55,045 nt of DNA from Elusimicrobiota bacterium. Lineage in GTDB: Bacteria > Elusimicrobiota > Elusimicrobia > UBA1565. Every line of letters begins with the position of its first letter. Positions within the stretch are counted from its first letter, which is position 1. The position numbers were made by a program, and so were the translations under genes. The notes below the pieces were generated by a model that saw only the letters and a list, made by a program, of their open reading frames with translations, searched no databases and was not told the origin of the DNA. The stretch spans positions 1-55,045 of the forward strand of contig JACPXC010000012.1 in assembly GCA_016196755.1 (NCBI GenBank), written 5' to 3'. Shown one piece after another: positions 8,857 through 26,038 of this stretch.

Positions 8857-9009
8857 TCAAAGCGGGGCTGGCCCGGCGATGATCTGTCCGAGCTCGGCGC
8901 CGGAGGTGCCGAGGGCCAAGTGGGGAGCGAAGGCGCATATCGGGCCGTGTAGTCCTTCGTCCCCGTCGAGATGCCCCTAAGGCCCAAGAGATGGATGGGG
9001 GGAGGCCGC

Positions 9010-9024: not shown

Positions 9025-10149
9025 ATGAGATACCCGCTCCTGCTCGTCCTAGCCCTCGCCCCCCGGTCCGCCGGCGCCCAGGTCATGACGCGCCCCACGC
9101 TCCCTGTGGGCCGCTCCGCGATGCCCATTACCATAGCCGCCCCCGTGCTGCCCTCTGTCTCTCTGAGTGCCCCGTCATTGGCGGCTCCCTCGGCCGCATC
9201 CGCGCTACCGAGCCTCCCGGCGGCGGCGCTTCCCGTCGTCGCCAAGGCGGCCGTCGCCCTGGCGGCTGTCGCCGTCGCGGCCCCCGCCAAGGCCCAGCCC
9301 GCCGTCCGCGAGGGTCTTACGACCGTGGCCCGCGCCGTCGCCAAGCCCGCTCAGGCGGGCTCAGCGCTCTCCTCCTTCTATACCGGCTCCGTGCGCTCCC
9401 AGGCCGCTCCCTTCGCGTTGGGTTCCTACGCGCCGAGTCTGACCGCCGGGCTTTCCCGCAACGGCATCGCTCCCGCCGCGCGGTTCGAGTATCGCTGGGG
9501 CATGAAGAGCGCCGACCTCCCCGGCCGCACGCCGCTCGAGAAGCACCTGGCCTTCTTCGACTCGACCGGCGACGGCACCCTCACCGTGGCCAAGACGTTC
9601 GGCCGCTTGCGCGAGATGGGCTTCGGGTTCTTCGAGGCGGGCCAGGTCGCTTTGGGCATCCAGTTCGGCATCCGCTCCCTGCTCGGCAAGAACGCGCCGG
9701 GCGGCATCATGGCCGCCCTGACCCTGCGGGTCGACGTCGCCGACGCCCACCTCATCGGCCGCAAGGGCACGCATCACATCTTCGACCGCGAGGGGAACAT
9801 CGACGCCGAGAAGATGCGCCGGCTCTACTCCCGCAGTACCATGGGCGCCTATCGCGACATGAACGGCCGCGACAAGTCCGGCAGCTACCTCACCAAGGAC
9901 GAGATGCTGGCCATGGTGGCGGAGAACGCCCAGGCCGAGGACCCGGGCGCCGCGGGCCGCATCGGCAACCGGATCGAGTGGGAGATCATGTTCAAGCACT
10001 TCGCCGACGGCACCGTCACGCGCAAGGGCGTCGCGTTCCCCGTCATCACCACCGACTCCCTCACGAAGCTTTATGACGGCCGGCTTTACTACGAGAAGGT
10101 CGGCGACGTGGCCATCGAGCGCAGCGAGGCCGCGAAGGCCCGGCGCTAG
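9025..10149 (+). CDS. Caleosin-family protein with secretory leader and Ala/Pro-rich linker
   Basis: A 374-residue protein in three parts. Residues 1-18 are a signal peptide with junction A-G-A-Q-V. Residues about 20-155 are Ala/Pro/Val/Ser-rich low complexity. Residues about 165-370 match the caleosin/peroxygenase family: L-E-K-H174-L-A-F-F-D, an EF-hand loop D179-S-T-G-D-G-T-L-T-V-A-K, a less polar central stretch, A-H244-L-I-G-R-K-G-T-H-H-I-F-D-R-E-G (compare the plant I-H-x-A-K-H-G-S-D-S-G-x-Y-D-x-E-G), then I-E-W-E-I-M-F-K-H-F-A-D-G and the S-L-T-K-L-Y-D-G-R-L-Y-Y ending. Caleosins bind calcium and heme and sit on lipid droplets in plants and fungi. His174 and one of His244/250/251 are candidate heme ligands. 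The EF-hand has Lys instead of Glu at position 12, so calcium affinity may be altered. Location and peroxygenase activity are inferred. Confidence 0.82.
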   Translation: MRYPLLLVLALAPRSAGAQVMTRPTLPVGRSAMPITIAAPVLPSVSLSAPSLAAPSAASALPSLPAAALPVVAKAAVALAAVAVAAPAKAQPAVREGLTTVARAVAKPAQAGSALSSFYTGSVRSQAAPFALGSYAPSLTAGLSRNGIAPAARFEYRWGMKSADLPGRTPLEKHLAFFDSTGDGTLTVAKTFGRLREMGFGFFEAGQVALGIQFGIRSLLGKNAPGGIMAALTLRVDVADAHLIGRKGTHHIFDREGNIDAEKMRRLYSRSTMGAYRDMNGRDKSGSYLTKDEMLAMVAENAQAEDPGAAGRIGNRIEWEIMFKHFADGTVTRKGVAFPVITTDSLTKLYDGRLYYEKVGDVAIERSEAAKARR

Positions 10150-10189
10150 GCGCGCTCGCTTCGCCCTGGCGACCGGAGGGCGGCGGGGC

Positions 10190-10195
10190 TATCCT
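10190..10195 (+). promoter_or_regulatory. -10 element (TATCCT) for the 10202 gene
   Basis: TATCCT ends six bases before the ATG at 10202. The same hexamer at the same distance precedes the gene starting at 35827. Confidence 0.4.
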
Positions 10196-10201
10196 CTGGC
10201 G

Positions 10202-11404
10202 ATGAGTCCAGGACCTTCGCGCGAGACCGGCACCTTCGTCGGCTCCGGCACGTTCGGCCTCGACCCGCGCCGGGCGCTGGAAGTCCTCCGGGCCAGGGGC
10301 CTTGAGGCCGCCGACGCGGCGCCGCTGTTGTGGGTGCGGGTGGCGGTCCTCCAGGGAGCGGCCCGGGTCCGTCTCGAACGCCGGCCCGACGGGTTCGCCG
10401 CGCGATTCGACGGCGAGCCGCTGCCGCGCGTCTGCCTGTCGCGTCCTTTCGACCCGCTGTTGGGGGAGACGCCCGGCTCCGAGGCCGAGCGGCAGTTCGC
10501 CCAGGCGCTGCTCCATCTTTCCCATCCGGGCGTGAAGACGGCCGTCACCTCGCGCGAGGGGTCCGACACGCTCGTCGAAGCGGCCTGGCCGCGGCGCGTC
10601 CTGAAGCGGATGGGACATCCGGCGGGCTGGGAGCTGCGAGTTCCGGGCTCTCGGCTCGACCCGACGCCGATTCCGGTGACGCTGGCGGTCGGCGGGGCCG
10701 AGTCCGTCGTCCGGCCTTGGGCGCGACGACATGGGGCGGAGGGTTGGAGCGGGACGGTGGACGGGCTTCGTTGCGGCGTCCGCGTCCTCAAGGATTTCGC
10801 CGCCGAGCCGAACGCCCAGTTGGCCTTGCACGGCGTCGGGGTCACGGCCGTCCCCCTCGAGGGTTTCCCGCTCTCGGCGGACGGCTGGGCCGAATCCTCC
10901 GACCTGTCGCTCAACGCCTCGTTGTCGAAGGCGGTGGTGGACGCGGCACACCGGCGCGCGACGGCCGCGTTGGGAAAGGCCGTGGGGCTGGCGTTGACCG
11001 CGGGGTTGGCCCGCCACGCGAGGCGCATGGGGCTTGCCTCCGCCGCTTTGCGGCGCGACCGGAGCTTCCTGAGCGCGTGGCGGTCGGCCGCGGCGGAATC
11101 CGCCTTCAAGACGGGGCCGGGGCGGCGGGACCGCCTCGTCCGGGGAGTCTTCCGCCGTCCGTCCGGCGATGCGGGCCTCGTGGCGGACACGGCCGCATGG
11201 AACACGGCTTGGCGCTACGCGTTCCTCAACCGCTCCTGGCACCCGGAGTCGGCCGCGGTCCGGGCCGCGCTCCAGGAGGCGCCGCTCTTGTTGGACAGGG
11301 ACCTGCGGCCCCGACCGATGTCCCAGGCGCTGGCGGGGACGGCGAACATCACCGCGGACGACTCGGAGTTCCTGCGCCAGGCGAGCGCGCCTCGTAGGCG
11401 CTAG
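10202..11404 (+). CDS. Unrecognised ~400-residue cytoplasmic protein
   Basis: A 400-residue soluble protein without signal peptide or membrane segment. The N terminus (S-G-T-F-G-L-D-P-R-R-A-L-E-V-L, then V-R-L-E-R-R-P-D-G-F-A-A-R-F-D-G-E-P-L) resembles degenerate GHKL/Hsp90-like ATPase N-terminal regions seen in some large uncharacterised proteins. The Asn/Asp/Gly motifs needed for ATP binding are not obvious, so this is only a hint. The rest is Arg- and Ala-rich with no motif I recognise. The ATG at 10202 is chosen because the upstream in-frame extension covers the end of the preceding gene and reads as noise, and because TATCCT lies six bases away. Confidence 0.65.
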   Translation: MSPGPSRETGTFVGSGTFGLDPRRALEVLRARGLEAADAAPLLWVRVAVLQGAARVRLERRPDGFAARFDGEPLPRVCLSRPFDPLLGETPGSEAERQFAQALLHLSHPGVKTAVTSREGSDTLVEAAWPRRVLKRMGHPAGWELRVPGSRLDPTPIPVTLAVGGAESVVRPWARRHGAEGWSGTVDGLRCGVRVLKDFAAEPNAQLALHGVGVTAVPLEGFPLSADGWAESSDLSLNASLSKAVVDAAHRRATAALGKAVGLALTAGLARHARRMGLASAALRRDRSFLSAWRSAAAESAFKTGPGRRDRLVRGVFRRPSGDAGLVADTAAWNTAWRYAFLNRSWHPESAAVRAALQEAPLLLDRDLRPRPMSQALAGTANITADDSEFLRQASAPRRR

Positions 11405-13644: not shown

Positions 13645-15204
13645 CTACGCCGCGGAGCGCTTGGCGACCTCGCGTTCGCGCAGCAGGCGTTTTAGGGTCT
13701 TCTTCATCGCGTTCTTGGGCAGCTCGGCGACCACCTCGATCTCGCGCGGACGCTTGTAGGCGTCGAGGTTCTCGCGGCAGTGGCGGTGCAGGGCCGCGGT
13801 GTCCGCGGCGCTGCCCTCGGCCAGGACGACGAAGGCCTTGACCCGCTCGTCGCCGGCCGCGTCCGGCACGCCGATGACGGCGGCCTCGCGCGCGTCGGGG
13901 TGGGTGAGCAGGGCCTTCTCGACCTGGGCCGAGAAGACCTTGAGGCCTTTGACGATGATCATGTCCTTCTTGCGGTCGTGGATGCGCAGAGCGCCGTCTT
14001 CGTCGATGGAGCCCAAGTCCCCGGACTTGAACCAGCCGTCCTCGTCGATGGCCGCGGCGGTGGCCTCGGGGTCCTGGAAGTAGCCCTTCATGACGTTGGG
14101 GCCCTTGATCTCGACCTCGCCGTCGGCGGCCAAGCGGATCGCCACGCCCGAGACCGGAAGCCCGACCGAGCCCACGCGCGGCGCGCCGACCACGTTCATC
14201 GTCGCCACGGGGGAGGTCTCGGTCAAGCCGTAGCCCTCGGTGATCTCGAGGCCGAAGGCGCGCTTCATGTCGTCGTGGGTCGCCGTCGAGAGCGGAGCCG
14301 CGCCCGAGATGCACAGCCGCACGCGCGCGAAGAGGCCGCGCTCGCGGATGGCCGCCTGCAGGACGGCGTTCTTGGACAGGAGCACCCACACCGGCGGGAC
14401 CGCGGCGAGGATGGTTGCCCCGTGGCGGCCGGCGGCCTCGAGCCAGGGCAGCGGGGGGGCGATCTGGGTCCCGATGACGATCTTTCCGCCCAGGGTCAGC
14501 GGGGTCAGCACGCAGCAGGTCCAGCAGAAGGTGTGGAACATCGGTAGGACGGCCATCGCCACGTCGTCGGCGCTCATGCGCAGGCGCTCGGCGGCGGCGG
14601 CGCAGTTGGAGACCAGGTTGCGGTGGGTCATCATGACCCCCTTGGGGACCCCGGTCGTCCCGCTCGTGTAGAGGATGGCCACCGTCTCGTCGGGCTCGAC
14701 TTGCGCCTCTGCGGCGGCGGGCAGCGGCCCGTGGGCGGCCAGCGCGGGCCAAAAGCTCGCGGCATCCTCCGCGGGCTCCATATCGGTCGTCCAGACCGAC
14801 GCCAGCGAGGGCAGGAAGGTCCGCGCGGCGCGCACGCCGGGCAGGAGGTCGTTTTGCGTCACGAGCCCCTTGGCCCCGCAGTGGTCGAGCATGTAGCGCA
14901 GCTCCTCGGGGTTCTGGATCATGAAGTTGATCGGCACGGCCACCGCCCCGAGGCGGGTCAGGCCGAAATAGGCGGTGATGAAGGCCGGGTCGTTGCGGTG
15001 CAGGATCGCCACGCGGTCGCCGCGGCCGATCCCGGCGCGCCGGAACACGGCCGCCGCGCGCAGGACCTTGTCGCGCAGTTGGTCGTAGGTCCAGAGGGCG
15101 TCGGTCCCGTCGCCGGCGGGGAAGGCCAGGGCGGCGCGGGTCCCGTGCTCCAAGACCGTCCGGTCGAGGGCGGTGTTTAAGTCCAGCGTCTGGGTGGCGT
15201 CCAT
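13645..15204 (-). CDS. Long-chain fatty-acid--CoA ligase (AMP-forming), cytoplasmic
   Basis: A 519-residue ANL-superfamily acyl-CoA synthetase with the AMP-binding P-loop Y-T-S-G-T-T-G-V-P-K-G, the E-G-Y-G-L-T-E-T-S-P motif, the hinge region (D-G-W-F-K-S-G-D-L-G, D-R-K-K-D-M-I-I-V-K-G) and a C-terminal N-A-M-K-K-T-L-K-R lysine motif. It should activate fatty acids to acyl-CoA with ATP. It begins directly at the catalytic fold with no signal peptide or Ala/Pro linker, unlike the lipid enzymes encoded next door. It is the second gene after the lipase-like hydrolase (gap 9 bases), with an AGGAG Shine-Dalgarno at 15211-15215 spaced six bases from the ATG. The pair suggests fatty acid release followed by activation. 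Confidence 0.93.
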   Translation of the reverse strand: MDATQTLDLNTALDRTVLEHGTRAALAFPAGDGTDALWTYDQLRDKVLRAAAVFRRAGIGRGDRVAILHRNDPAFITAYFGLTRLGAVAVPINFMIQNPEELRYMLDHCGAKGLVTQNDLLPGVRAARTFLPSLASVWTTDMEPAEDAASFWPALAAHGPLPAAAEAQVEPDETVAILYTSGTTGVPKGVMMTHRNLVSNCAAAAERLRMSADDVAMAVLPMFHTFCWTCCVLTPLTLGGKIVIGTQIAPPLPWLEAAGRHGATILAAVPPVWVLLSKNAVLQAAIRERGLFARVRLCISGAAPLSTATHDDMKRAFGLEITEGYGLTETSPVATMNVVGAPRVGSVGLPVSGVAIRLAADGEVEIKGPNVMKGYFQDPEATAAAIDEDGWFKSGDLGSIDEDGALRIHDRKKDMIIVKGLKVFSAQVEKALLTHPDAREAAVIGVPDAAGDERVKAFVVLAEGSAADTAALHRHCRENLDAYKRPREIEVVAELPKNAMKKTLKRLLREREVAKRSAA

Positions 15205-15213
15205 GGTCAGCTC

Positions 15214-16290
15214 CTATTCCCGCAGGATCCAGCGCACGAGGCTCTCGGCGAAGTCGCCGGCCGAGGCCGGGTCGCGGCCCGCCGCGCCGGCGACCCGCCG
15301 GCCGAGGATGGTGTCGACGTGGTCCATGCCGTCGAGCGCGGCGTAGAACGCGCCGGGGATCACGCCCTGCTCGGGCGAGACGACGCCGTCGGAGGCGTGC
15401 GGGGGGCGGCTCGTGACGACCGAGAAGACGCGCAGGCCCGGGCGCAGGGCCGGGGGCGTAAGCGGTGCCTCGGCGCGCTCGCGGCGCGAGATCTGCTCGA
15501 GGGGGCGGCGCAGGAAGAGCGGGGCCGACTGGTAGGCCTGGTTGAACAAGCGCGCGTAGCGGCGCTGCCATTCCTCGAGCGGGGCCCGCCACAGGATGTG
15601 GTCGCTGACCGGGGTCCCGTAGTAGGGGCTCTGTAGGGCGAGGAGGGCCGCGACCTTCTCCTGGAGGCCGGGGTTATCGCGCAGAGCGCCCAGGAAGTCG
15701 AGCGCCCCCTTGCTGTGGCCGATGAGGATGACGGGCTTGGGCGAGGCGGCGATCGCCGCGGCCAGCGCGGCGCCGTTGGTCTCCACGGTGCCCGCGGGGT
15801 CGGTGTCGACGAGCTCCACGTCGAGGCCGAGTTCGCGCAGGCGGACCAGATAGGGCTGCATGTAGCCGGGCAGGTCCTCCCAGAGGAAGCCGCGCGCCAT
15901 GAGATAGCGGTAGCGGCCGGCGGCCTCGGGCAGCGGTTGAGCGGTTCCCTCCCGGACCTGCTGATAGCCGGATAATAAGGAGGCGGTGCGGTCGAGGGGG
16001 TTGGCCGCAGGGGAGGCCGCGGCGTCTGGTGCGATGGTGACCGTCTGCTCGACAGGGATCGCCTTAGCCGGGACGGCGCTCTCCCCGGGCCGGGGGACTT
16101 CACTGATGGAGAGTATGGGCAGGGCTGCGGGAAGCGTCGCCGCCTGGGCCGAGGCGCCCACCGGAGCCATGACCGGAGCGAAGCCCGTCATGGCCGAGAC
16201 GGTCCCGCGGTAGCGCAGGGCGGGGACCCTGGAAGGCGCCTGCGCCTGCGCGGCGGCGAGGAGGACGGACAGCGCCAGCGAGCCGATCAT
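15214..16290 (-). CDS. Exported lipase-like alpha/beta hydrolase
   Basis: A 358-residue protein with a signal peptide (about residues 1-18), then about 90 residues of Ala/Pro/Val-rich linker, then an alpha/beta-hydrolase domain. The nucleophile elbow is G-H-S193-K-G after a hydrophobic strand (P-V-I-L-I-G-H-S), followed by S-P-Y-Y-G-T-P. Asp301 (S-D-G-V-V-S-P) and His324 (G-M-D-H-V-D) complete a plausible triad, in the order of triacylglycerol lipases. It probably hydrolyses lipid esters outside the cytoplasm; the substrate is not proven. I place the start at the ATG at 16290 because the leader begins there and TACGAT lies eight bases upstream. An acyl-CoA synthetase follows after 9 bases. 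Confidence 0.85.
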   Translation of the reverse strand: MIGSLALSVLLAAAQAQAPSRVPALRYRGTVSAMTGFAPVMAPVGASAQAATLPAALPILSISEVPRPGESAVPAKAIPVEQTVTIAPDAAASPAANPLDRTASLLSGYQQVREGTAQPLPEAAGRYRYLMARGFLWEDLPGYMQPYLVRLRELGLDVELVDTDPAGTVETNGAALAAAIAASPKPVILIGHSKGALDFLGALRDNPGLQEKVAALLALQSPYYGTPVSDHILWRAPLEEWQRRYARLFNQAYQSAPLFLRRPLEQISRRERAEAPLTPPALRPGLRVFSVVTSRPPHASDGVVSPEQGVIPGAFYAALDGMDHVDTILGRRVAGAAGRDPASAGDFAESLVRWILRE

Positions 16291-16298
16291 AAGCGTGC

Positions 16299-16304
16299 AT
16301 CGTA
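16299..16304 (-). promoter_or_regulatory. -10 element (TACGAT) for the lipase/acyl-CoA synthetase pair
   Basis: On the minus strand TACGAT ends eight bases before the lipase ATG, with no Shine-Dalgarno sequence. Confidence 0.45.
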
Positions 16305-16520
16305 GCGTGGTGTACGCCCGGCTCGGAGGAGCCGAAGGGCCCAACGGCGCGTCGCTATGCGGCCCATGCCGAAAGCGGCCCACCGGTCTCTGAAGGTCGA
16401 AAGTCGGGCACGCATTTTCATGGGTCCCGAAAGGAGGCCGCAAGCCCGTCTAGGGGTTAGCGCGGCCTGTTTTGGTGTCAGACATTAAGATTTAGGCGCC
16501 GCCGGTTCTGCCGGAAACGA

Positions 16521-16674: not shown

Positions 16675-19347
16675 ATGACCACGATCATCAAGAAGCATGT
16701 CGGGAGTCTTATCTCGGGCGCTCTGTTCCTCTCGGCGCCGGGCTCCTCGGCCTGGGCCCAGGTGACCGCCGCGCGTCTGGCGCCGGTCGGAACGCCGGTG
16801 CCCGGCATCGCGGCCGGCGCTGCTTCGCGCGTGGGCGCGGCGCCGGTCATGACTCCTTCCCTCGGACTTCCCGCCATGGGGGCGACGCCGTCCTTGGCTC
16901 AGCCCACAGTCACGCCTAGGCTGGCTCCTTCCGCGGCCGCCGCCGCGCCGATTGCGGCCGCCGCCGTTGCCGCCCAGGTCCAGGCCGCGTTGCCGTCCGC
17001 CAAGACCGCTCCGTTGGGGACGGTTGCCGCTTCTTCCTTAATAAGGGGCGAGGCTGCCGCTCAGAACGCCGAAAAGACCGCCTTCTCTGCCGCCGCCGGT
17101 CTCCAGACGATGGGCCGCGCCGCCAAGACCCGCGGCTTCGGCGCCTCCTTGGGCGCCTTCTTCGATGGTCTGCGCCCCGGCGCCGGCTCGCTCAACGGCG
17201 CCACGCCGGCCCGCGGCGGCAACGCCGCCGACCAGGCCGCCGACATGCTCAAGGGCGACAAGAGCCGCGAGCTGTTCCTGCCCGGCTTCTACTGGGGCGG
17301 CCTGGAGCTCGACGCCTTGGCGAAGGTCCCGGTCAACCTCGAGGACGGCGCCCAGGCCTCGCTCGACGCCTACAAGGCCCTGATCCGCTACGGCCTGCGC
17401 TCGAAGTCGGCCGGCGCGGCCGAGACCGCGAAGCTCCGCTCGGAGCTCGGCTCGATCCATACCATCCTCCTCCTCAAGAAGCTCGGCATCACCCTCAAGG
17501 ACCTCGAGACGCCGGTGATGGACACCAAGACCATCGACGACACCAACGACATCCCGGTTGAGATGCTCCAGCGCGCCGTCACGCTGGGCCTCCACAAGCT
17601 CAAGTTCCCGGCGGAGTTCGGCGGCCTCGACCTCCACCAGCGCGAGTATGTCCAGGTCCTCGAGACGATCGCTCCCATCTCGCCCGCCCTCGTTGGCCAG
17701 CTCAGCGCCCAGAACACCATCGGCACCGCCCCGCTTACGATGTTCGGCACCGAGGCGCAGCAGAAGAAGTACCTGCCGCGCCTGACCAGCGGCGAGGGGA
17801 TGGTCGCCTTCGGCCTCACCGAGCCCCTGGCCGGCACCGACCTCGATCGCCTGAGCACCACGGCCACCCTCAAGGACGGCAAGTGGAAGATCTCGGGCCA
17901 GAAGGTGTTCATCACCGGCATCATGGATGCCCAGATGGTCTATCTCGTCGCCGGCCACACCATCGTGGACGGCAAGGACGTCGGCCCGACCGTCTTCATC
18001 GTCGACGACCTGGGATTTAAGGTCAACGAGTCCTGGGAGGCGAAGAAGCGGAACCTCCTGCGCCTGGCCGACCGCGGCATGCGCATCACCCCTTGGACCC
18101 GCGACGGCTTCGAGTTCATGATGATCAAGGGCACCGACCAGGGCTTCATCCAGCTCACCGACTTCGAGATCCCCGCCGAGAACGTCCTCGGCCCGGTCGG
18201 CAAGGATGAGAAGGGCATGGACGGCAAGAAGGTGCCGCTGCGCAGCCTCAACAAGGGCCGCGCCGGCTTCGCCTACCTGGGCGCCAGCGCCGAGTGGTTC
18301 GCCGAGCGCCAGCTCGAGTGGGCCGCCGACCGCATGATGTTCGACATGTACGCCCCCAAGCGCGGCGAGGAAGGCCGCCAGGGCTACATGGAGTTCCCGG
18401 CCACCCTCATCGGCCGCTCGCGCATGAAGGCCGAGGTCCTCAAGGTGCTCTCGAAGTACGCCTCGGCCCTCATCGACGCGTACCCGAACTCCAGCGTGGC
18501 GGCGCTTTCGGCCCTCATCAAGGTCCGCGCCAGCCAGGCTAACTGGGAAAACGCGCTGGACACGCTCGAACTCGGCGGCGGGCACGCCCTCATCAAGGAC
18601 GCCCCCGGCCGGGTCTACCAATCGGTGCTCGACTCGTGGATCGCGCGCATCGTGGAGGGCGTCAACCCCGCGATGTCGCAGTTCCCGCACATGATGGCGG
18701 GCGGCAAGGTCATGAAGGCGATGGGCTCGCTGGGGGGCATGCTCAAGGCCGGGTGGATGCAGACCCTCAACTTCTTCGTCCCCTTCGCGGTGACGAGCAA
18801 GGGCGCCCTGAGCTGGAGCGAGGCCAAGTACGTCCAGCGGCGCACCGCCGAGTTCGCGATGCGCTTCGGCCTGTCGGCCCTCTTCCTCGGCCTCATCGGC
18901 TTCATCAAGTACGCTTGGGCCAAGGGCCAGGTGTGGAAGCTCTTCTGGCCGCCGACGCTGATCGCCGGGGTCATGAAGTCCTCCCAGATCGAGTTCGCCC
19001 CGCACCAGAACACCCTGATCCGGGCCGGCGAGGCGCAGGCCGACATCCTCTCCTTGGCCATGGTCCAGACCGAGCTCAACACCAACAAGGACATCGCCCC
19101 GACCCGGCGCTGGGTCCTCGAGCAGGCCGTGAAGGTCATGCAGTGGCAGATCCACCAGAGCCTAAGCTACATGAACCCGTGGGGCCATCCGGTCGAGAAC
19201 ATCCAGGCCGAGGTGGGCCGCCGCCTGATCGCCGAGGAGCTGGCGAACCCGGGTGACCGGCCGAACCGCGTCCGCGAGCACCAGGACTTCCTGGAGCGCA
19301 CGGCCGACGAGTTCCATACCCGTCTGCGTCAGGAGGCCGGTCGATGA
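16675..19347 (+). CDS. Acyl-CoA dehydrogenase-family enzyme with signal-peptide-like leader and linker
   Basis: An 890-residue protein, far longer than ordinary acyl-CoA dehydrogenases (about 380-600). Residues 1-28 form a signal-peptide-like leader with a basic n-region (I-I-K-K-H) and junction A-W-A-Q-V. Residues about 30-185 are Ala/Pro/Thr/Val low complexity. The core (about 200-690) has F-P-A-E-F-G-G-L, G380-L-T-E-P-L-A-G-T-D with its FAD/substrate motif, E-L-G-G-G-H at 632-637, and E661-G-V-N-P-A-M-S-Q in place of the usual E-G-T-x-E-I. The C-terminal 200 residues add a hydrophobic segment (about 727-748) and helices. Predicted reaction: FAD-dependent alpha,beta-dehydrogenation of acyl-CoA. 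It is first in a four-gene operon and overlaps the next gene by ATGA. AGGGA lies just before the ATG. Confidence 0.9.
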   Translation: MTTIIKKHVGSLISGALFLSAPGSSAWAQVTAARLAPVGTPVPGIAAGAASRVGAAPVMTPSLGLPAMGATPSLAQPTVTPRLAPSAAAAAPIAAAAVAAQVQAALPSAKTAPLGTVAASSLIRGEAAAQNAEKTAFSAAAGLQTMGRAAKTRGFGASLGAFFDGLRPGAGSLNGATPARGGNAADQAADMLKGDKSRELFLPGFYWGGLELDALAKVPVNLEDGAQASLDAYKALIRYGLRSKSAGAAETAKLRSELGSIHTILLLKKLGITLKDLETPVMDTKTIDDTNDIPVEMLQRAVTLGLHKLKFPAEFGGLDLHQREYVQVLETIAPISPALVGQLSAQNTIGTAPLTMFGTEAQQKKYLPRLTSGEGMVAFGLTEPLAGTDLDRLSTTATLKDGKWKISGQKVFITGIMDAQMVYLVAGHTIVDGKDVGPTVFIVDDLGFKVNESWEAKKRNLLRLADRGMRITPWTRDGFEFMMIKGTDQGFIQLTDFEIPAENVLGPVGKDEKGMDGKKVPLRSLNKGRAGFAYLGASAEWFAERQLEWAADRMMFDMYAPKRGEEGRQGYMEFPATLIGRSRMKAEVLKVLSKYASALIDAYPNSSVAALSALIKVRASQANWENALDTLELGGGHALIKDAPGRVYQSVLDSWIARIVEGVNPAMSQFPHMMAGGKVMKAMGSLGGMLKAGWMQTLNFFVPFAVTSKGALSWSEAKYVQRRTAEFAMRFGLSALFLGLIGFIKYAWAKGQVWKLFWPPTLIAGVMKSSQIEFAPHQNTLIRAGEAQADILSLAMVQTELNTNKDIAPTRRWVLEQAVKVMQWQIHQSLSYMNPWGHPVENIQAEVGRRLIAEELANPGDRPNRVREHQDFLERTADEFHTRLRQEAGR

Positions 19348-22300
19348 ACGTCACGCTCAGGCTGGGGCTCGTACTGTCGCTCACGGTCGGCCAGACCGCA
19401 CCGGCGGCCGCGCAGGTCGTCGGCGCGGCGCGGTCCGTCGCTCCCGTAGTGCCCGTGGCCGGCGTCGGCGCGGCGGGCGCGGGGTCGCGCAGCGTCCTGC
19501 CGTCCGCCAGCCTGGCTCCGGCGCTCTCGGCGCCCGTCCTTCCCGGCGCGGTCGCCCCGTCGACCCTCCGCCCGGCCCCGGCTTCCGTCTCGGCTCCCGC
19601 GGCCGTCTCCGCCGTCGCGGCGCCACAGGCGTCGCCGGCCGCCGCTGTCGCCGCGGCCCAGCCGCTCCGCTCGGTCATGAACGCCGTCGCCGCCGAGCAG
19701 GGCCGGCCCAAGCAGGATAAGCCCGTCGCCGCCGCCGCTCAGCTCGAGGCCATCGCCGGCAGGTCCGCCAAGTCCGGCAAAGCCGGCGTCGCCGGCTCCT
19801 TCGACGGCACCGCGAAGGCCGACCCGGCCGCCGCGGCCGCCAACCTCGTCGAGCTCAAGGCCGACATCGCCCAGCGTACCGGCCTGGTCCGGCCCTCCGC
19901 CAACGCCGCCGCCCCGCGCATCGCCGTGGTCGCCGCGGCGCGCCTGCCGCAGGGCAAATTCCCCAACAGCTACTCCAAGCGCGACAGCGCCAAGGACTTG
20001 GGTGCTAAGCTCGTCGGCGGCCTGCTCGACTCCGCGGGGATGACGCCCGAGTCTCTCAAGAACCTCTCCGAGTCCGGCAACGAGGTCAAGTTCCTCTTCG
20101 GCGCCGTCGACAACTCCGAGTCGCCCGACATCGGCCGCGAGATCGCCGTGAAGCTGGGACTCACCCACATCCCCGGCACCGGGATCGCCAAGAACTGCGG
20201 CACCAGCCTCGAGGCCGTGGGTTTGGCCATCGGCCAGTTGATCTCAGGCCAGGCCGACATCGTCGTGGCCGGCGGCGCCGAGTCGATGAGCCGCCTGCCG
20301 ATGATCACCAAGGACCCCGTCCTCAAGCAGCAGTTCATGACCCTGGCCGTCCTACCGTCGATGATCGCCTCGGCTTCGCTCATGCAGAAGCCCATGATGA
20401 TGTTCGCCTACGCCCAGACCTGGCTGGCGCACAAGTGGCACTTGATGACGACCCACCACCGCTTCGCCATCACCGAGGGCTTGCCGATCGACGGCGACGT
20501 CATGGCCGCCACCGCCCAGCGCCTGGCCGACAAGTACGGCGTGTCGCGGACCGACATGGACTGGTTCGCCTACAACTCCCAGAACCGCGCCGAGAAGGCC
20601 ACCCGCGAGGGCGCCTTCGCCGACGAGATCGTCTCCTACGATTCGGGCAAGGGTGTGGAGACCGTCGACCAGGGCATCCGCTTCGGCCAGTCGCGCAAGG
20701 GCTTCGGCAGCCGGAAGATCAAGCCGGTCTTCGGCACCGAAGACATCACCGCCGCCAACGCCAGCCAGATCTCCGACGGCGCGGCCGGCGTCATCTTGAT
20801 GCTGGAGGACAAGGCCAGGGAGCTCGGCCTGGTCCCGCTGGCCTTCGTCAGCGCCGTGGCCGACACGGCCGGCGACCCGCGCGAGATGGGCATCCAGCCC
20901 GCTTACGCCCTGCCCAAGGCTCTCAAGAAGGCCGGCGTGGCCCTCGAAGACCTCCAGGTCGTCGAGCTCAACGAGGCCTTCGCCGCCCAGGCCATCTCGG
21001 TCATGAAGGCCCTCGGCCTGCCGGCCGAGAAGGTCAATCCGCGCGGCGGGGCTATCGCCCTAGGCCATCCGCTGGCCGCCTCGGGCGCGCGCATCCTGAC
21101 CACCCTCATCCATACGATGATGCACAAGGGCCTCCACAAGGGCGCCTGCTCGTTGTGCATCGGCGGCGGCGAGGGCATCGCCGCGGTCGTCGAGCGCGAC
21201 GAGAACGGCATCCCCGAGGAGTACATCGCCGCCCTAAAGGGCAAGATGGCGGCGCGCGGCGTCAGCGCGCCCGTCGTCGAGGACGTCGAGCGCGCGCTTC
21301 GCGGCTTGCCGCCGATGCCCGACACCGAGACGGGCCACCACGCCGAGCTCGAGCGCTTCTTCTCCTTCCTCGACCAGTTCCAGCCGCTGCCGCGCTTCAC
21401 CGGAGCGGAGCGGAAGGCCTCCCCGGTGCTGGCGCGCCGGGTCGACGCCCGTATCGCCCGGGTCCAGGCCGACCTGGCCGCGTTCGACGACGCCGAAAAG
21501 ATCCGCAACCTGATCGTCTCGGTCTCCGAGGGCGTGGCCACCGTCGCCATCGACCGCGGGCCCGTCAACGCGATCAACGCCGACCTCGTCGAGGAGTTCG
21601 GCGCGGTGTTCCACGACCTCTCGAAGCGCTCGGACGTGAAGGCCATCGTCCTCACCGGCAAGGGCAAGACCTTCGTGGCCGGCGCCGACATCACTCTCAT
21701 CCAGTCCGCGGCCAACCCCGCGGAGGCCGCCGCGAAGGCGGCCGGCCTGCAGCGCCTGCTCGACAAGGTCGAGGGTTCCGAGAAGCCGATCCTCGTGGCC
21801 CTCAACGGCCAGACCCTGGGCGGCGGCTCGGAGTTGGCGATCTCGGCGCACGAGCGCTGGGCGGCCGGCACGGCCGAGTTGGCCCAACCCGAGATCAAAC
21901 TGCTCTTTAACCCCGGCGCCGGCGGCACCCAGCGCCTGGTGCGCCTCGTGGGCCTGACCGAGGCCCTGACGGCGATGAACTCCGGGCAGTCCTCCGACGC
22001 CCACACCGCCAAGGAGAAGGGCTGGGTCGACGAGGTCGTCGCGCCCGCCGAGCTCCTGACCCGGGTGCAGGCGCGGGCCCGTGAGCTGGCCGCCCTCCCC
22101 GACGCCGAGCGCGCGGCGTGGGTCAAGGCCCACCGTACGCTCGACAAGCCCGTGAAGCTGACCCTCATGGAGCGGATCGGCATGCTTTGGGGCGGCTTCC
22201 TCATCAAACGCGCGGTCGCCGACCAGACCCGCGCGCTGGGCAAGGACAAGGAGATCGCCATCCCCGCCATGATGGGGATCATCGACGCCACGCTGACCGG

Positions 22301-23672
22301 GATCAACGACGGTCCGCGCGCCGGGCTCGCCAAGGAGGCCGAGGTGTTCGGCAGGCTCGCCGCCTCGCCGGCGTCCAAGTTCGTCCAGCGGCTGTTTTTG
22401 CGCAGCACCGGCGGCCCCAAGCTCGAGGGGATCACCGACGGCACGGTGGAGCCGCTGGCGATCAATAAGGTGGCGGTGGTCGGCGCCGGCGCGATGGGCG
22501 CCGGTATCGCCCAGTTGGCCGCCTACGCCGACGTCCCGGTCGTCGTCAAGGAAGTGGCCCAGGGGCCGCTCGAGGCCGGGCTGGCCAAGATCAAGGGACT
22601 CTTCCAGGGCTTGGTCGAGAAGCTCGTCTACACGCCGGAGAAGGCCGCCGCGAAGTTCGCCAACGTCATCGGGCTGACCGACGACGCGGCGTTCAACGCC
22701 TCGGAGCCCGACCTCCTCATCGAGGCGGTCAAGGAAGACCTCGGCCTCAAGAAGAAGCTCTTCGCGCTGTGGGGCAAGAACCTCCCCGAGCGCACGATCC
22801 TCGCCACCAACACCTCGGCGCTCTCGATCACCACGCTGGCCCTGGCGTCGGGCCGTCCCGGCAAGGTCGTCGGCCTGCACTACTTCAACCCGCCGCACAA
22901 GCTGCCGCTCGTCGAGCTCATCCTCCCCGACAAGGAGAAGCTCAGCGCCGCCGAGCGCGCCGAGCTCGACCGCACGGTGGCCTCGGTGATCCCGTACCTC
23001 AAGAAGACCGGGCGCATGGTCGTCGTCACCCAGGACGCCCCGGGATTTATCGTCAACCGGATCCTGTTCCCCTACGTCAACACGGCCCTCCGTCTCGTCG
23101 AGGAAGGGGCGGGGGTCGCCCAGGTCGACGCCGCGATGCGCAAGCTCGGCGCGCCGATGGGGCCGCTGCAGCTGGCCGACCACATCGGCTTCTTCCTCGG
23201 CATCGAGGTCGGCGAATACCTCAAGGCTTCCTTCCCCCACGTGGGCAGCGCCTCGCTGATGCTCCAGGTGCTCAAGTCCTGGGGCCACGAGGGCTCGTAC
23301 TGGGGCGCCAAGAAGGGCTTCTACGTCGACGGCAAGCCGGTCGAGGCCCTGGTCCGCCAGGCCGCCGCGGTGGCCCGCGCCGTCGAGGCCGCCGAGCCGG
23401 CCACCCCCGAGGACCGCGCCAGGCTCATCGCCGAATTCTCGGCCAAGAAGGAGCAGTTGGCGGCCGCGGCCCAGCGGGGCCTGCGCACGCCTTCCGGCAA
23501 AGAGATCGAGGACCGGCTGGTCCGCGCCATGTACGACGAGGGCCGCGTCATCGTCGACACCGGCGTGGTCTCCTCCGAGGATGAGATCGACATCGCGATG
23601 ACGACCGGCATGGGCTTCCCGGTTCAGACCGGCGGACTCATGCGCTACGGCGCGCGCGGAGGCGCGAAATAA
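19344..23672 (+). CDS. Single-chain thiolase / enoyl-CoA hydratase / 3-hydroxyacyl-CoA dehydrogenase with leader
   Basis: A 1442-residue fusion carrying the last three steps of beta-oxidation. Residues 1-23 form a signal peptide with junction A-A-A-Q-V, followed by an Ala/Pro-rich linker to about 190. Thiolase (about 191-640): nucleophile C285 (N-C-G-T-S-L-E-A), N-E-A-F-A, H575 (A-L-G-H-P) and C605 (L-C-I-G-G-G). Enoyl-CoA hydratase (about 715-920): F777-V-A-G-A-D-I oxyanion segment, with E830 and E850 spaced 20 apart as in FadB. Hydroxyacyl-CoA dehydrogenase (about 1040-1440): G1047-A-G-A-M-G NAD motif and H1179/E1191 in H-Y-F-N-P and P-L-V-E-L-I. All key residues are present. The order FadA then FadB on one chain, behind a leader, is unusual. 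The ATG overlaps the upstream stop. Confidence 0.93.
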   Translation: MNVTLRLGLVLSLTVGQTAPAAAQVVGAARSVAPVVPVAGVGAAGAGSRSVLPSASLAPALSAPVLPGAVAPSTLRPAPASVSAPAAVSAVAAPQASPAAAVAAAQPLRSVMNAVAAEQGRPKQDKPVAAAAQLEAIAGRSAKSGKAGVAGSFDGTAKADPAAAAANLVELKADIAQRTGLVRPSANAAAPRIAVVAAARLPQGKFPNSYSKRDSAKDLGAKLVGGLLDSAGMTPESLKNLSESGNEVKFLFGAVDNSESPDIGREIAVKLGLTHIPGTGIAKNCGTSLEAVGLAIGQLISGQADIVVAGGAESMSRLPMITKDPVLKQQFMTLAVLPSMIASASLMQKPMMMFAYAQTWLAHKWHLMTTHHRFAITEGLPIDGDVMAATAQRLADKYGVSRTDMDWFAYNSQNRAEKATREGAFADEIVSYDSGKGVETVDQGIRFGQSRKGFGSRKIKPVFGTEDITAANASQISDGAAGVILMLEDKARELGLVPLAFVSAVADTAGDPREMGIQPAYALPKALKKAGVALEDLQVVELNEAFAAQAISVMKALGLPAEKVNPRGGAIALGHPLAASGARILTTLIHTMMHKGLHKGACSLCIGGGEGIAAVVERDENGIPEEYIAALKGKMAARGVSAPVVEDVERALRGLPPMPDTETGHHAELERFFSFLDQFQPLPRFTGAERKASPVLARRVDARIARVQADLAAFDDAEKIRNLIVSVSEGVATVAIDRGPVNAINADLVEEFGAVFHDLSKRSDVKAIVLTGKGKTFVAGADITLIQSAANPAEAAAKAAGLQRLLDKVEGSEKPILVALNGQTLGGGSELAISAHERWAAGTAELAQPEIKLLFNPGAGGTQRLVRLVGLTEALTAMNSGQSSDAHTAKEKGWVDEVVAPAELLTRVQARARELAALPDAERAAWVKAHRTLDKPVKLTLMERIGMLWGGFLIKRAVADQTRALGKDKEIAIPAMMGIIDATLTGINDGPRAGLAKEAEVFGRLAASPASKFVQRLFLRSTGGPKLEGITDGTVEPLAINKVAVVGAGAMGAGIAQLAAYADVPVVVKEVAQGPLEAGLAKIKGLFQGLVEKLVYTPEKAAAKFANVIGLTDDAAFNASEPDLLIEAVKEDLGLKKKLFALWGKNLPERTILATNTSALSITTLALASGRPGKVVGLHYFNPPHKLPLVELILPDKEKLSAAERAELDRTVASVIPYLKKTGRMVVVTQDAPGFIVNRILFPYVNTALRLVEEGAGVAQVDAAMRKLGAPMGPLQLADHIGFFLGIEVGEYLKASFPHVGSASLMLQVLKSWGHEGSYWGAKKGFYVDGKPVEALVRQAAAVARAVEAAEPATPEDRARLIAEFSAKKEQLAAAAQRGLRTPSGKEIEDRLVRAMYDEGRVIVDTGVVSSEDEIDIAMTTGMGFPVQTGGLMRYGARGGAK

Positions 23673-26038
23673 GCCATCCGCGCCGCGGCGCGTTCGCCGT
23701 CCTCAACGCGCTCGCCCTGCTCGCCCAGGCCGCCGCTCCCGCGGCGGCGCAGGTGCGCGCGGGGATCGCGGCCCCGGCCGCGGGGGCGCGGGTCGGGATT
23801 CCGCCGGCCGCGCTGGCGCCGACGTCGGCGCCCCTGGGCTCGGTATCGCTAGCCGTCTCCCTGCCGCTGCTGACGCCGGGCCTGACGTCCGCCCCGAGGG
23901 CAGTCCTTCCTAATGTAGAGACCCGTCCCGTGGCCGTTGCTGCCCCTCTTGCCGCGGAAGCTCTGCTTCCTGGTGTCGGTCCCCGTCCGGTCGCGGTCCC
24001 CGGCGCCTCGTCCGTCGTCCCTAAGGTCGCGGAAGGATCGGCGGTCCCCGGCGAGCGCCCCGTCCTCGGCGCGCTCAGCGGCGTCTCCGCGGCGGCGGCG
24101 AAGCCCGCCGCCTCCGCGGCCGCCCTGCGCACGGTCTACGACGCCGGTCCCGCCTTCAAGCGCGCGGGACAGGAGCCGGTCGTCGACCTCTCCGACACCA
24201 AGAGCGTCTACCGCGGCTTCCTGCGCCGCCTGGGCTTTCACTCCTACACGGCCGACATCGCCCAGTCGCGTGCCGAGCGCGCCCCTGTCCAGCACCAGGC
24301 CCAGGTCTTCGACGTGGCGGCCGACCGCCTCAAGGTCCTCGACGCCTCGCGCGAGTTGGCCGTGGCGGTGATGGCCGGCCTCGAGCGCCAAGGCTATTCC
24401 GAGGAGTCGGTAGAGCGGGCCGTCGATTTGGCCGCCCGGCTCATCGAGCTGCGTCCGCTCGAGGCGCCGTCCAACATGCCCTACTCGGTGCGGACGGCCA
24501 AGCGCCCGGAGCGCCTGCGCTGGCTCTTGGGCGTCACGCGCGACAAGGCCTCCAGCCAAGCCGGCCGGGTGCTCTCCGACGTCGCCGGCACGGTCTACTC
24601 GCCCGCGGAACTGGTCCCGCGCGAGGAGCTCCAGGCCCTGCTCGGGCACGTGCGCGCGGTGCTGAGCTCCATGTACGCCGACGTCGAGTACGGCGCGGGC
24701 CGCTACGCCGGGCGAGCCCTGGTCTCCTCCCTCGCGCGCCACGCGCGCCTCTTTGGCCGGCCCGAGCTCGAGGCGCGCCTCGCCTCGGCGCTGGCCGAGC
24801 GGGGCTTCAAGCTCTCCGACTACATCGGCAGCCGCTTCGAGCTGACCGACCGCTCGGGGAACAAGGAGGCCTTCGAGGTCCGCACCGGCGACATCCTCGG
24901 CACCCGCAGCCGCAGCCGGCGCTCTTCCGAGATCGCCATCGGCGCCGTGCCCCACCCGAGCCGCTGGTGGCACGCCTGGCGCGAGGGGCTCTTCGGCAGC
25001 ATCCTCGGCGTCTTCATGAAGCCGCTCGAGAAGTACCCGGTCCAGGTCGCCGGCCAGCCGGTGCGCAACTGGGTCCGGCGCAGCGTCCACGAGTGGCGCA
25101 AGTGGCTGGCCAACACCTCCCATTTCCTCAAGGGCTACTCCCACGCCGCCATCGCCGACGTCCGCGAGGCCGACGGGATCTACAACGTCCTGGTCTGGGA
25201 GAACGAGGTCGACCAGGGCGAAGGCGGCATCCGGCCGGTCAGCTTCTGGGACCAGTTCCTGGCCAAGGACTACCACGCCCGCTTCGGCTACGCGCGCTGG
25301 GACCCCTTCAAGGTGTGGGACGCTTTCCACGCGCAGGCCGCCGAGCGGGGCTGGCAGGAGTTCCCGCACCGCGTCGAAGACGGCGCCTGGCGCACGGTGC
25401 TCAGCCGCGAGGAGCACGAGGCCCTGCTGGCCATCCCGCGCGAGCGCGCCGGCGAGCTCGTCGACACGATGAACCGCCGGACGATGCGCCTCATCGAGGC
25501 GCTGATGACCGGCTTCGGGATCGGCTACGGCTACGGCCTGAGCAACTCGCTATTGCGCCTCATATGCACCACCACCCTCTGGCATGGCTTCCTGGTCGGC
25601 TCCCAGTTCGAAATGCAGTCGAAGCCCGACATGTTCCACCCGCTGACCTATCTCTTCAAATGGCTGGGGACCAAGAACACGGCCGGCCTCGACATGGCCG
25701 CGCGGATGATCTGGCCGGGCTCGTTGTTTGCCGACGACAAGGTCGCCGAGCACCGCTCGATCGACCTCGCCGGCCGCGACGGCGCGCGCCGGGCCGACGA
25801 CAACACGATGATGCAGGTCTACGCCGAGCGCGACCCCGCGCTCACCGAGCGCCTGCGCGAGGTCCTCAAGGACGGCGTCGCGGACCCCTTCGCCTTCCAA
25901 GACGGCACGCTCGAGACCGCCTTGCACCGCCAGTTGGTGGTGCGCCGCTGGCGCCGCCGCGACCCCGAGGGCAAGCGGGCCGGCGTCAGCCTTCCGCGCG
26001 GTTATCAGCGCGAGATCGAGATCCTATACGACCGGTGA
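23669..26038 (+). CDS. Unrecognised 789-residue protein of the lipid operon, with likely AUA start
   Basis: I do not recognise this protein. In the open frame a clear signal-peptide-like leader (S-H-P-R-R-G-A-F-A-V-L-N-A-L-A-L-L-A-Q) ends at A-A-A-Q-V, matching its operon partners, followed by Ala/Pro/Val linker to about residue 160. No ATG, GTG or TTG exists upstream of that leader before the in-frame stop at 23582. The only placed start is ATA at 23669, overlapping the previous TAA stop as ATAA. The first conventional codon, GTG 23753, falls just after the leader. The body is mostly soluble and rich in Trp/Arg (S-R-W-W-H-A-W-R, V-H-E-W-R-K-W-L), with a glycine/tyrosine-rich hydrophobic stretch (G-F-G-I-G-Y-G-Y-G-L-S-N-S-L-L-R-L). 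The context points to lipid metabolism. Confidence 0.7.
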   Translation: MSHPRRGAFAVLNALALLAQAAAPAAAQVRAGIAAPAAGARVGIPPAALAPTSAPLGSVSLAVSLPLLTPGLTSAPRAVLPNVETRPVAVAAPLAAEALLPGVGPRPVAVPGASSVVPKVAEGSAVPGERPVLGALSGVSAAAAKPAASAAALRTVYDAGPAFKRAGQEPVVDLSDTKSVYRGFLRRLGFHSYTADIAQSRAERAPVQHQAQVFDVAADRLKVLDASRELAVAVMAGLERQGYSEESVERAVDLAARLIELRPLEAPSNMPYSVRTAKRPERLRWLLGVTRDKASSQAGRVLSDVAGTVYSPAELVPREELQALLGHVRAVLSSMYADVEYGAGRYAGRALVSSLARHARLFGRPELEARLASALAERGFKLSDYIGSRFELTDRSGNKEAFEVRTGDILGTRSRSRRSSEIAIGAVPHPSRWWHAWREGLFGSILGVFMKPLEKYPVQVAGQPVRNWVRRSVHEWRKWLANTSHFLKGYSHAAIADVREADGIYNVLVWENEVDQGEGGIRPVSFWDQFLAKDYHARFGYARWDPFKVWDAFHAQAAERGWQEFPHRVEDGAWRTVLSREEHEALLAIPRERAGELVDTMNRRTMRLIEALMTGFGIGYGYGLSNSLLRLICTTTLWHGFLVGSQFEMQSKPDMFHPLTYLFKWLGTKNTAGLDMAARMIWPGSLFADDKVAEHRSIDLAGRDGARRADDNTMMQVYAERDPALTERLREVLKDGVADPFAFQDGTLETALHRQLVVRRWRRRDPEGKRAGVSLPRGYQREIEILYDR

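Follow-up and report, generated by a model that had tools for sequence, protein, structure and literature searches.

Caleosins have so far been studied as oil-body peroxygenases of plants and fungi, where their defining features are a single EF-hand, a region that binds lipid and a pair of invariant histidines coordinating the haem (PMC5957377, PMC6309107); their origin has been placed in the eukaryotic ancestor (PMC6309107). An open reading frame on a contig of an Elusimicrobiota bacterium (55,045 nt, hereafter the window) raises the question of whether a protein of this family is exported by a bacterium, and what role it might have there. The preliminary description of the locus had treated exported bacterial caleosins as unfamiliar. 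Bacterial caleosins as a class are already known, caleosin domains having been reported, as here, in Sorangium cellulosum (PMC5957377) and in Legionella spp. (PMC7542358). By their description, the Sorangium proteins reportedly keep the EF-hand, both histidines, the lipid-binding domain and a normal length, whereas the window protein is degenerate and carries an export signal.

Layout and family assignment of the protein

The reading frame at 9025–10149 (+) is translated into a protein of 374 aa. An alternative start lies upstream at 8971, and 9025, where the signal peptide begins, is from its sequence the sensible one. The probable Sec signal peptide (MRYPLLLVLALAPRSAGA, followed by Q; residues 1–18, 9025–9078, cleavage near AGA/Q) is evident by eye and composition, and strongly suggests that the protein is exported. 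It is followed by a linker rich in Ala, Pro, Val and Leu (residues 19–113, 9079–9363), which ends in the short motif ALSSFYTGS (9364–9390), comparable to ALSAFYAGS and ALDSFYSGS in the alpha-dioxygenase–caleosin fusions of genomes G204 and G199. The exported layout proposed for the protein was thus recovered.

A single Pfam family was detected by hmmscan, PF05042 (Caleosin), with an E value of 3e-16 and 60.2 bits for a curated cut-off of 27 bits; the match covers most of the domain (residues 168–357, 9526–10095; profile positions 3–168 of 170). In a whole-genome profile search the locus scored 61.5 bits and none of 14 control genomes was matched, so that the match is not due to chance. The caleosin identity first read from motifs is thereby confirmed, and the motifs themselves are in place: LEKHLAFFD at 171–179, AHLIGRKGTHHIFDREG within 239–257, IEW at 317–319 and SLTKLYDG at 345–352. 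Codon use (GC3 0.90 versus GC2 0.54) is consistent with a real gene, and ordinary bacterial genes, among them mutS and rimO, lie on the same contig.

A signal peptide, a long Ala/Pro/Val-rich linker, a short F-D-G motif and then an enzyme domain make up a layout that is common among the exported proteins of the host. It is found in the window at 15214–16443 (−), 16675–19347 (+), 19344–23672 (+) and approximately 23690–26038 (+), as well as at loci L018, L019, L029 and L084, and the enzymes concerned include Endonuclease I, PLD, an S41 protease and beta-oxidation enzymes. The FDG motif was present in 5 of 10 such proteins in the host and 4 of 5 in genome G203 (0.08 in shuffles), versus 16 of 332 ORFs. 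A stricter form, L..[F][FWY]..G, did not hold in this second genome, where only the simpler motif did. The motif is perhaps a sorting or processing signal.

Relatives and key residues

A PF05042 search across Elusimicrobiota matched 10 of 341 genomes and revealed three kinds of caleosin domain protein. Class I consists of canonical, stand-alone exported caleosins from the same taxonomic order as the host (L003/G181, L004/G187, L005/G205 and L006/G182). Like the window protein they are exported, share 30–31% identity with it and, in two cases (G181, G187), have the Ala/Pro linker, but both of their histidines are kept and their EF-hand is complete, and they score 121–149 bits against PF05042 versus 60 bits; a second EF-hand was detected by the Pfam scan in L005 and L006. 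Class II has two members, both divergent and stand-alone: the window protein and L007 of genome G214. In L007 the first haem histidine is replaced by Arg and the second is kept. Class III proteins are large and exported, and have a weak caleosin-like domain close to their C-terminus. Profile–profile comparison indicates homology between the domains of class I and those of class III (probability 99.6%, E 2e-24); the EF-hand and second histidine are lost in all class III domains, and the first histidine is retained only in G171 and G204.

In the phylogeny with bacterial matches that had been proposed earlier, the window protein groups with the stand-alone caleosins and Arabidopsis AtCLO1, apart from the class III domains, with a support of 100/100. 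Its branch is long (1.59) and its exact placement is unsure. Profile searches did not find a window-type gene in either of two other genomes of the host genus; the host genome itself was sampled as about 850 kb of sequence. A scan of genome contigs with the window protein as query gave no matches. With the canonical set it returned four Elusimicrobia MAGs and nothing from other phyla, using few peptide patterns, so that absence elsewhere is not implied. Relatives were not found among the viral contigs or plasmids scanned.

Key residues were located by alignment to AtCLO1, in which H70 and H138 coordinate the haem (PMC5216026). The AtCLO1 reference sequence used scores 255 bits against PF05042, and its length and two histidines agree with the table in PMC5216026. 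His174 (9544–9546) is the equivalent of H70 and is kept. The place of H138 is taken by Arg246, or by Lys247 if the gap is shifted by one (9760–9765), so that the second invariant ligand is lost; the window protein is the exception here, the other stand-alone Elusimicrobiota caleosins all having a histidine at this position (5 of 5). The EF-hand loop DSTGDGTLTVAK (residues 179–190, 9559–9594) is degenerate, with Thr at position 3 (T181) and, as described earlier, Lys at position 12 (K190), and it gave no EF-hand match in the Pfam scan, which detected one in L003–L006. The lipid-binding hydrophobic domain was likewise not found: the caleosin domain has no P...PSP..P proline knot, and its best 19-residue mean hydrophobicity is 1.1, versus 2.05 for AtCLO1.

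Compared with the plant and fungal CLO/PXG proteins (PF05042, EC 1.11.2.3; Arabidopsis CLO1 and RD20/CLO3), the window protein thus shares the whole-length profile match, the first haem histidine, the FFD at the EF-hand start and the C-terminal YDG motif. In contrast, it adds a signal peptide and a 90-aa Ala/Pro linker, replaces Glu12 of the EF-hand by Lys, has Thr at position 3 and Arg or Lys for H138, and has neither a proline knot nor a strong central hydrophobic anchor. The alignment shows two of the three key sites of the domain to be altered. Because it lacks the second histidine and a conserved calcium-binding EF-hand, we have filed it, on the strength of these residues, as a divergent caleosin-family protein rather than as a caleosin/peroxygenase (EC 1.11.2.3). 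The haem peroxygenase function suggested earlier is not supported: the first ligand is kept and the second is not; with EF-hand positions 3 and 12 also changed, canonical peroxygenase activity of this copy is doubtful. In the helix after the EF-hand, an additional histidine (‘IH’ or ‘SH’) is conserved throughout the Elusimicrobiota domains of classes I and III, where AtCLO1 and L007 have Asn and the window protein has Gln; it is a possible alternative haem ligand.

AlphaFold2 models, each made from a six-sequence input, were obtained for the window domain (pLDDT 78.8, pTM 0.77) and for the canonical L003 (pLDDT 79.2, pTM 0.75). The order of helices and strands is the same in both, which supports one common fold; the models do not alone identify it as the plant caleosin fold. 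Sequence search found no caleosin structure in the PDB, and a PDB fold search gave no convincing relative of the window model. Both models match the same three giant-virus proteins (probability 1.00, TM about 0.5–0.65). These are uncharacterised proteins of Edafosvirus, Harvfovirus and Yasminevirus (BFVD A0A3G4ZVQ5, A0A3G5A5K6 and A0A5K0U776), which from this predicted likeness may be unrecognised caleosins.

Fusions of alpha-dioxygenase and caleosin-like domains

Beyond the window, nine other Elusimicrobiota genomes encode an exported alpha-dioxygenase that has a divergent caleosin-like domain fused to it. The fusion proteins, among loci L106–L115, are about 1100–1400 aa long and have the order signal peptide, linker, animal-haem-peroxidase domain (PF03098), membrane helices and caleosin-like domain; L106 of G175 is an unfused alpha-dioxygenase. 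The PF03098 domain is specifically that of an alpha-dioxygenase, its closest solved structures being the rice and Arabidopsis fatty acid alpha-dioxygenases (L106 versus 4kvj, E 1.7e-119; L108, the G204 fusion, versus 4hhr, E 1.1e-76). The distal histidine, catalytic tyrosine and proximal histidine are conserved in all 11 copies, which places the fusion partner among the fatty acid alpha-dioxygenases. Ten of the 11 alpha-dioxygenases found in Elusimicrobiota bear the caleosin-like domain, the exception being that of G175; in the G205 fusion this domain is interrupted by the contig end.

The host has a fusion of its own on contig C67 (L116:5912–10123, −), in which only the second half of the caleosin domain remains, and which is also joined to a domain that G199 and G203 encode as a neighbouring gene of its own. 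One certain case of a class III domain without the dioxygenase was found, likewise in the host (C37:95061–96842, L002/L117), and it groups in the tree with the congeneric fusion. Four genomes (G181, G182, G187 and G214) have a stand-alone caleosin and no detected alpha-dioxygenase, and a partnership between the two is therefore not obligatory.

The same two enzyme families meet in Arabidopsis, where CLO3 interacts with alpha-DOX1 on the lipid droplets of leaves and the two turn 18:3 into 2-hydroxy-octadecatrienoic acid (PMC10327486), and where, as the review summarises Shimada 2014, they jointly make 2-hydroxy fatty acids. In contrast to this oil-body pair, the Elusimicrobiota pair is fused and exported, with membrane helices between the domains, and its caleosin part lacks the EF-hand and H138. 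Fungal dioxygenases fused to P450 (PMC13049297) offer an analogy. Judged by titles and abstracts, no literature joining a bacterial alpha-dioxygenase with a caleosin was found, and a survey of alpha-dioxygenases (PMC8720084) mentions neither Elusimicrobia, nor a fusion, nor caleosin. As far as we searched, the exported caleosin form and the repeated fusion are undescribed in the literature, databases beyond Elusimicrobiota having been covered only sparsely.

Genomic neighbourhood and possible role

The preliminary description had linked the caleosin to lipid genes nearby, and these lie 3.5–14 kb away, partly on the opposite strand. The Pfam matches to an AMP-binding enzyme or acyl-CoA synthetase (13645–15204), an acyl-CoA dehydrogenase (16675–19347, +) and a thiolase–hydratase–dehydrogenase fusion (19344–23672, +) are real, whereas the ‘lipase’ (15214–16290) is only a weak, sub-threshold match to a serine hydrolase (E 0.015). 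RimO, a formylglycine-type sulfatase-modifying enzyme and opposite-strand genes intervene. Genome G184, of the same genus, keeps the downstream neighbour of the caleosin (89% identity) with a different gene upstream of it, and no stand-alone caleosin was found there; the caleosins of the canonical relatives sit amid unrelated genes. An operon or synteny with the lipid genes was rejected on these grounds, and since the relatives' caleosins are placed elsewhere, we see no genomic link to the lipid genes, and the proposed functional link is not supported. The alpha-dioxygenase–caleosin fusion, although outside the window, is the better functional lead.

Coenzyme A chemistry is normally cytosolic; the acyl-CoA dehydrogenase and the 1442-aa thiolase/enoyl-CoA hydratase/hydroxyacyl-CoA dehydrogenase chain both have apparent signal peptides, and thiolases of ordinary length are also present in the host genome. 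The protein encoded at 10169–11404 (+) has no Pfam or NCBIfam match and belongs to a large paralogous family, most members of the host's taxonomic family having some 5 to 15 matches per genome. Searches for WS/DGAT and lipoxygenase gave no matches in nine genomes, the host being included for WS/DGAT, but were made without a positive-control match, so that absence is not implied.

The reading we favour, with about even confidence, is that the window protein is a divergent, non-canonical lipid-binding accessory of the envelope, in the context of extracytoplasmic fatty-acid alpha-oxidation. It would be a secreted, periplasmic or surface protein that retains the fold and the first haem-ligand histidine. 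Its canonical Ca2+-dependent haem peroxygenase function has most likely been lost, given the changes in the calcium loop and at the second haem ligand, and it may instead bind lipids or fatty acids. The most plausible setting would be alpha-oxidation by the alpha-dioxygenase–caleosin fusion of the same lineage, its presumed partner. The profile match, the residue losses, the tree, the models, the fusions, the truncated fusion of the host and the plant CLO3/alpha-DOX1 interaction all argue for this accessory role.

Residue loss does not prove inactivity, and H250 and H251 of THHIFD, adjoining the altered position, could supply a ligand. A haem peroxygenase still working in the envelope with His174 and such a substitute, and needing no calcium, would also fit relatives that retain both canonical histidines and a full EF-hand. 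However, the two histidines lie about four residues out of register, the altered position is a histidine in plants as well as in the five other stand-alone relatives, and mutation of one invariant histidine (His85) abolishes the activity of A. flavus AfPXG (PMC5808235), which makes this unlikely. The gene was not found in the two other genomes of the genus, so that the copy may be dispensable or decaying, under relaxed selection, without a conserved role and heading for loss, and the long branch and lost metal and haem residues would agree; yet its reading frame and export signal are intact, its codon bias is strong, most fold-defining columns are retained and its AlphaFold2 model is confident, and we consider such decay distinctly unlikely. 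A lipid-droplet coat or oxidase acting with the lipase and the beta-oxidation enzymes encoded nearby has their proximity in its favour and is highly improbable: the domain has neither a proline knot nor a strong hydrophobic anchor, exported proteins cannot coat cytosolic droplets, neither operon nor synteny joins the genes, the lipase is doubtful, and WS/DGAT was unmatched in the host by the uncontrolled search.

A broader proposal goes beyond the accessory role, namely that Elusimicrobiota perform extracytoplasmic fatty-acid alpha-oxidation through an exported, membrane-anchored alpha-dioxygenase–caleosin-fold fusion, a bacterial counterpart of alpha-DOX1/CLO3, with the window caleosin supplying the half missing from the host fusion; we regard it as unlikely in this full form. 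The repeated fusion nevertheless provides a gene-fusion argument for placing alpha-dioxygenase and caleosin in one pathway. Exported bacterial caleosins, some of which have an EF-hand without gaps in its key positions and the two haem ligands in place, are small test proteins that offer a chance at a caleosin structure, and the window copy is a natural experiment on the caleosin fold without its canonical calcium and haem sites.
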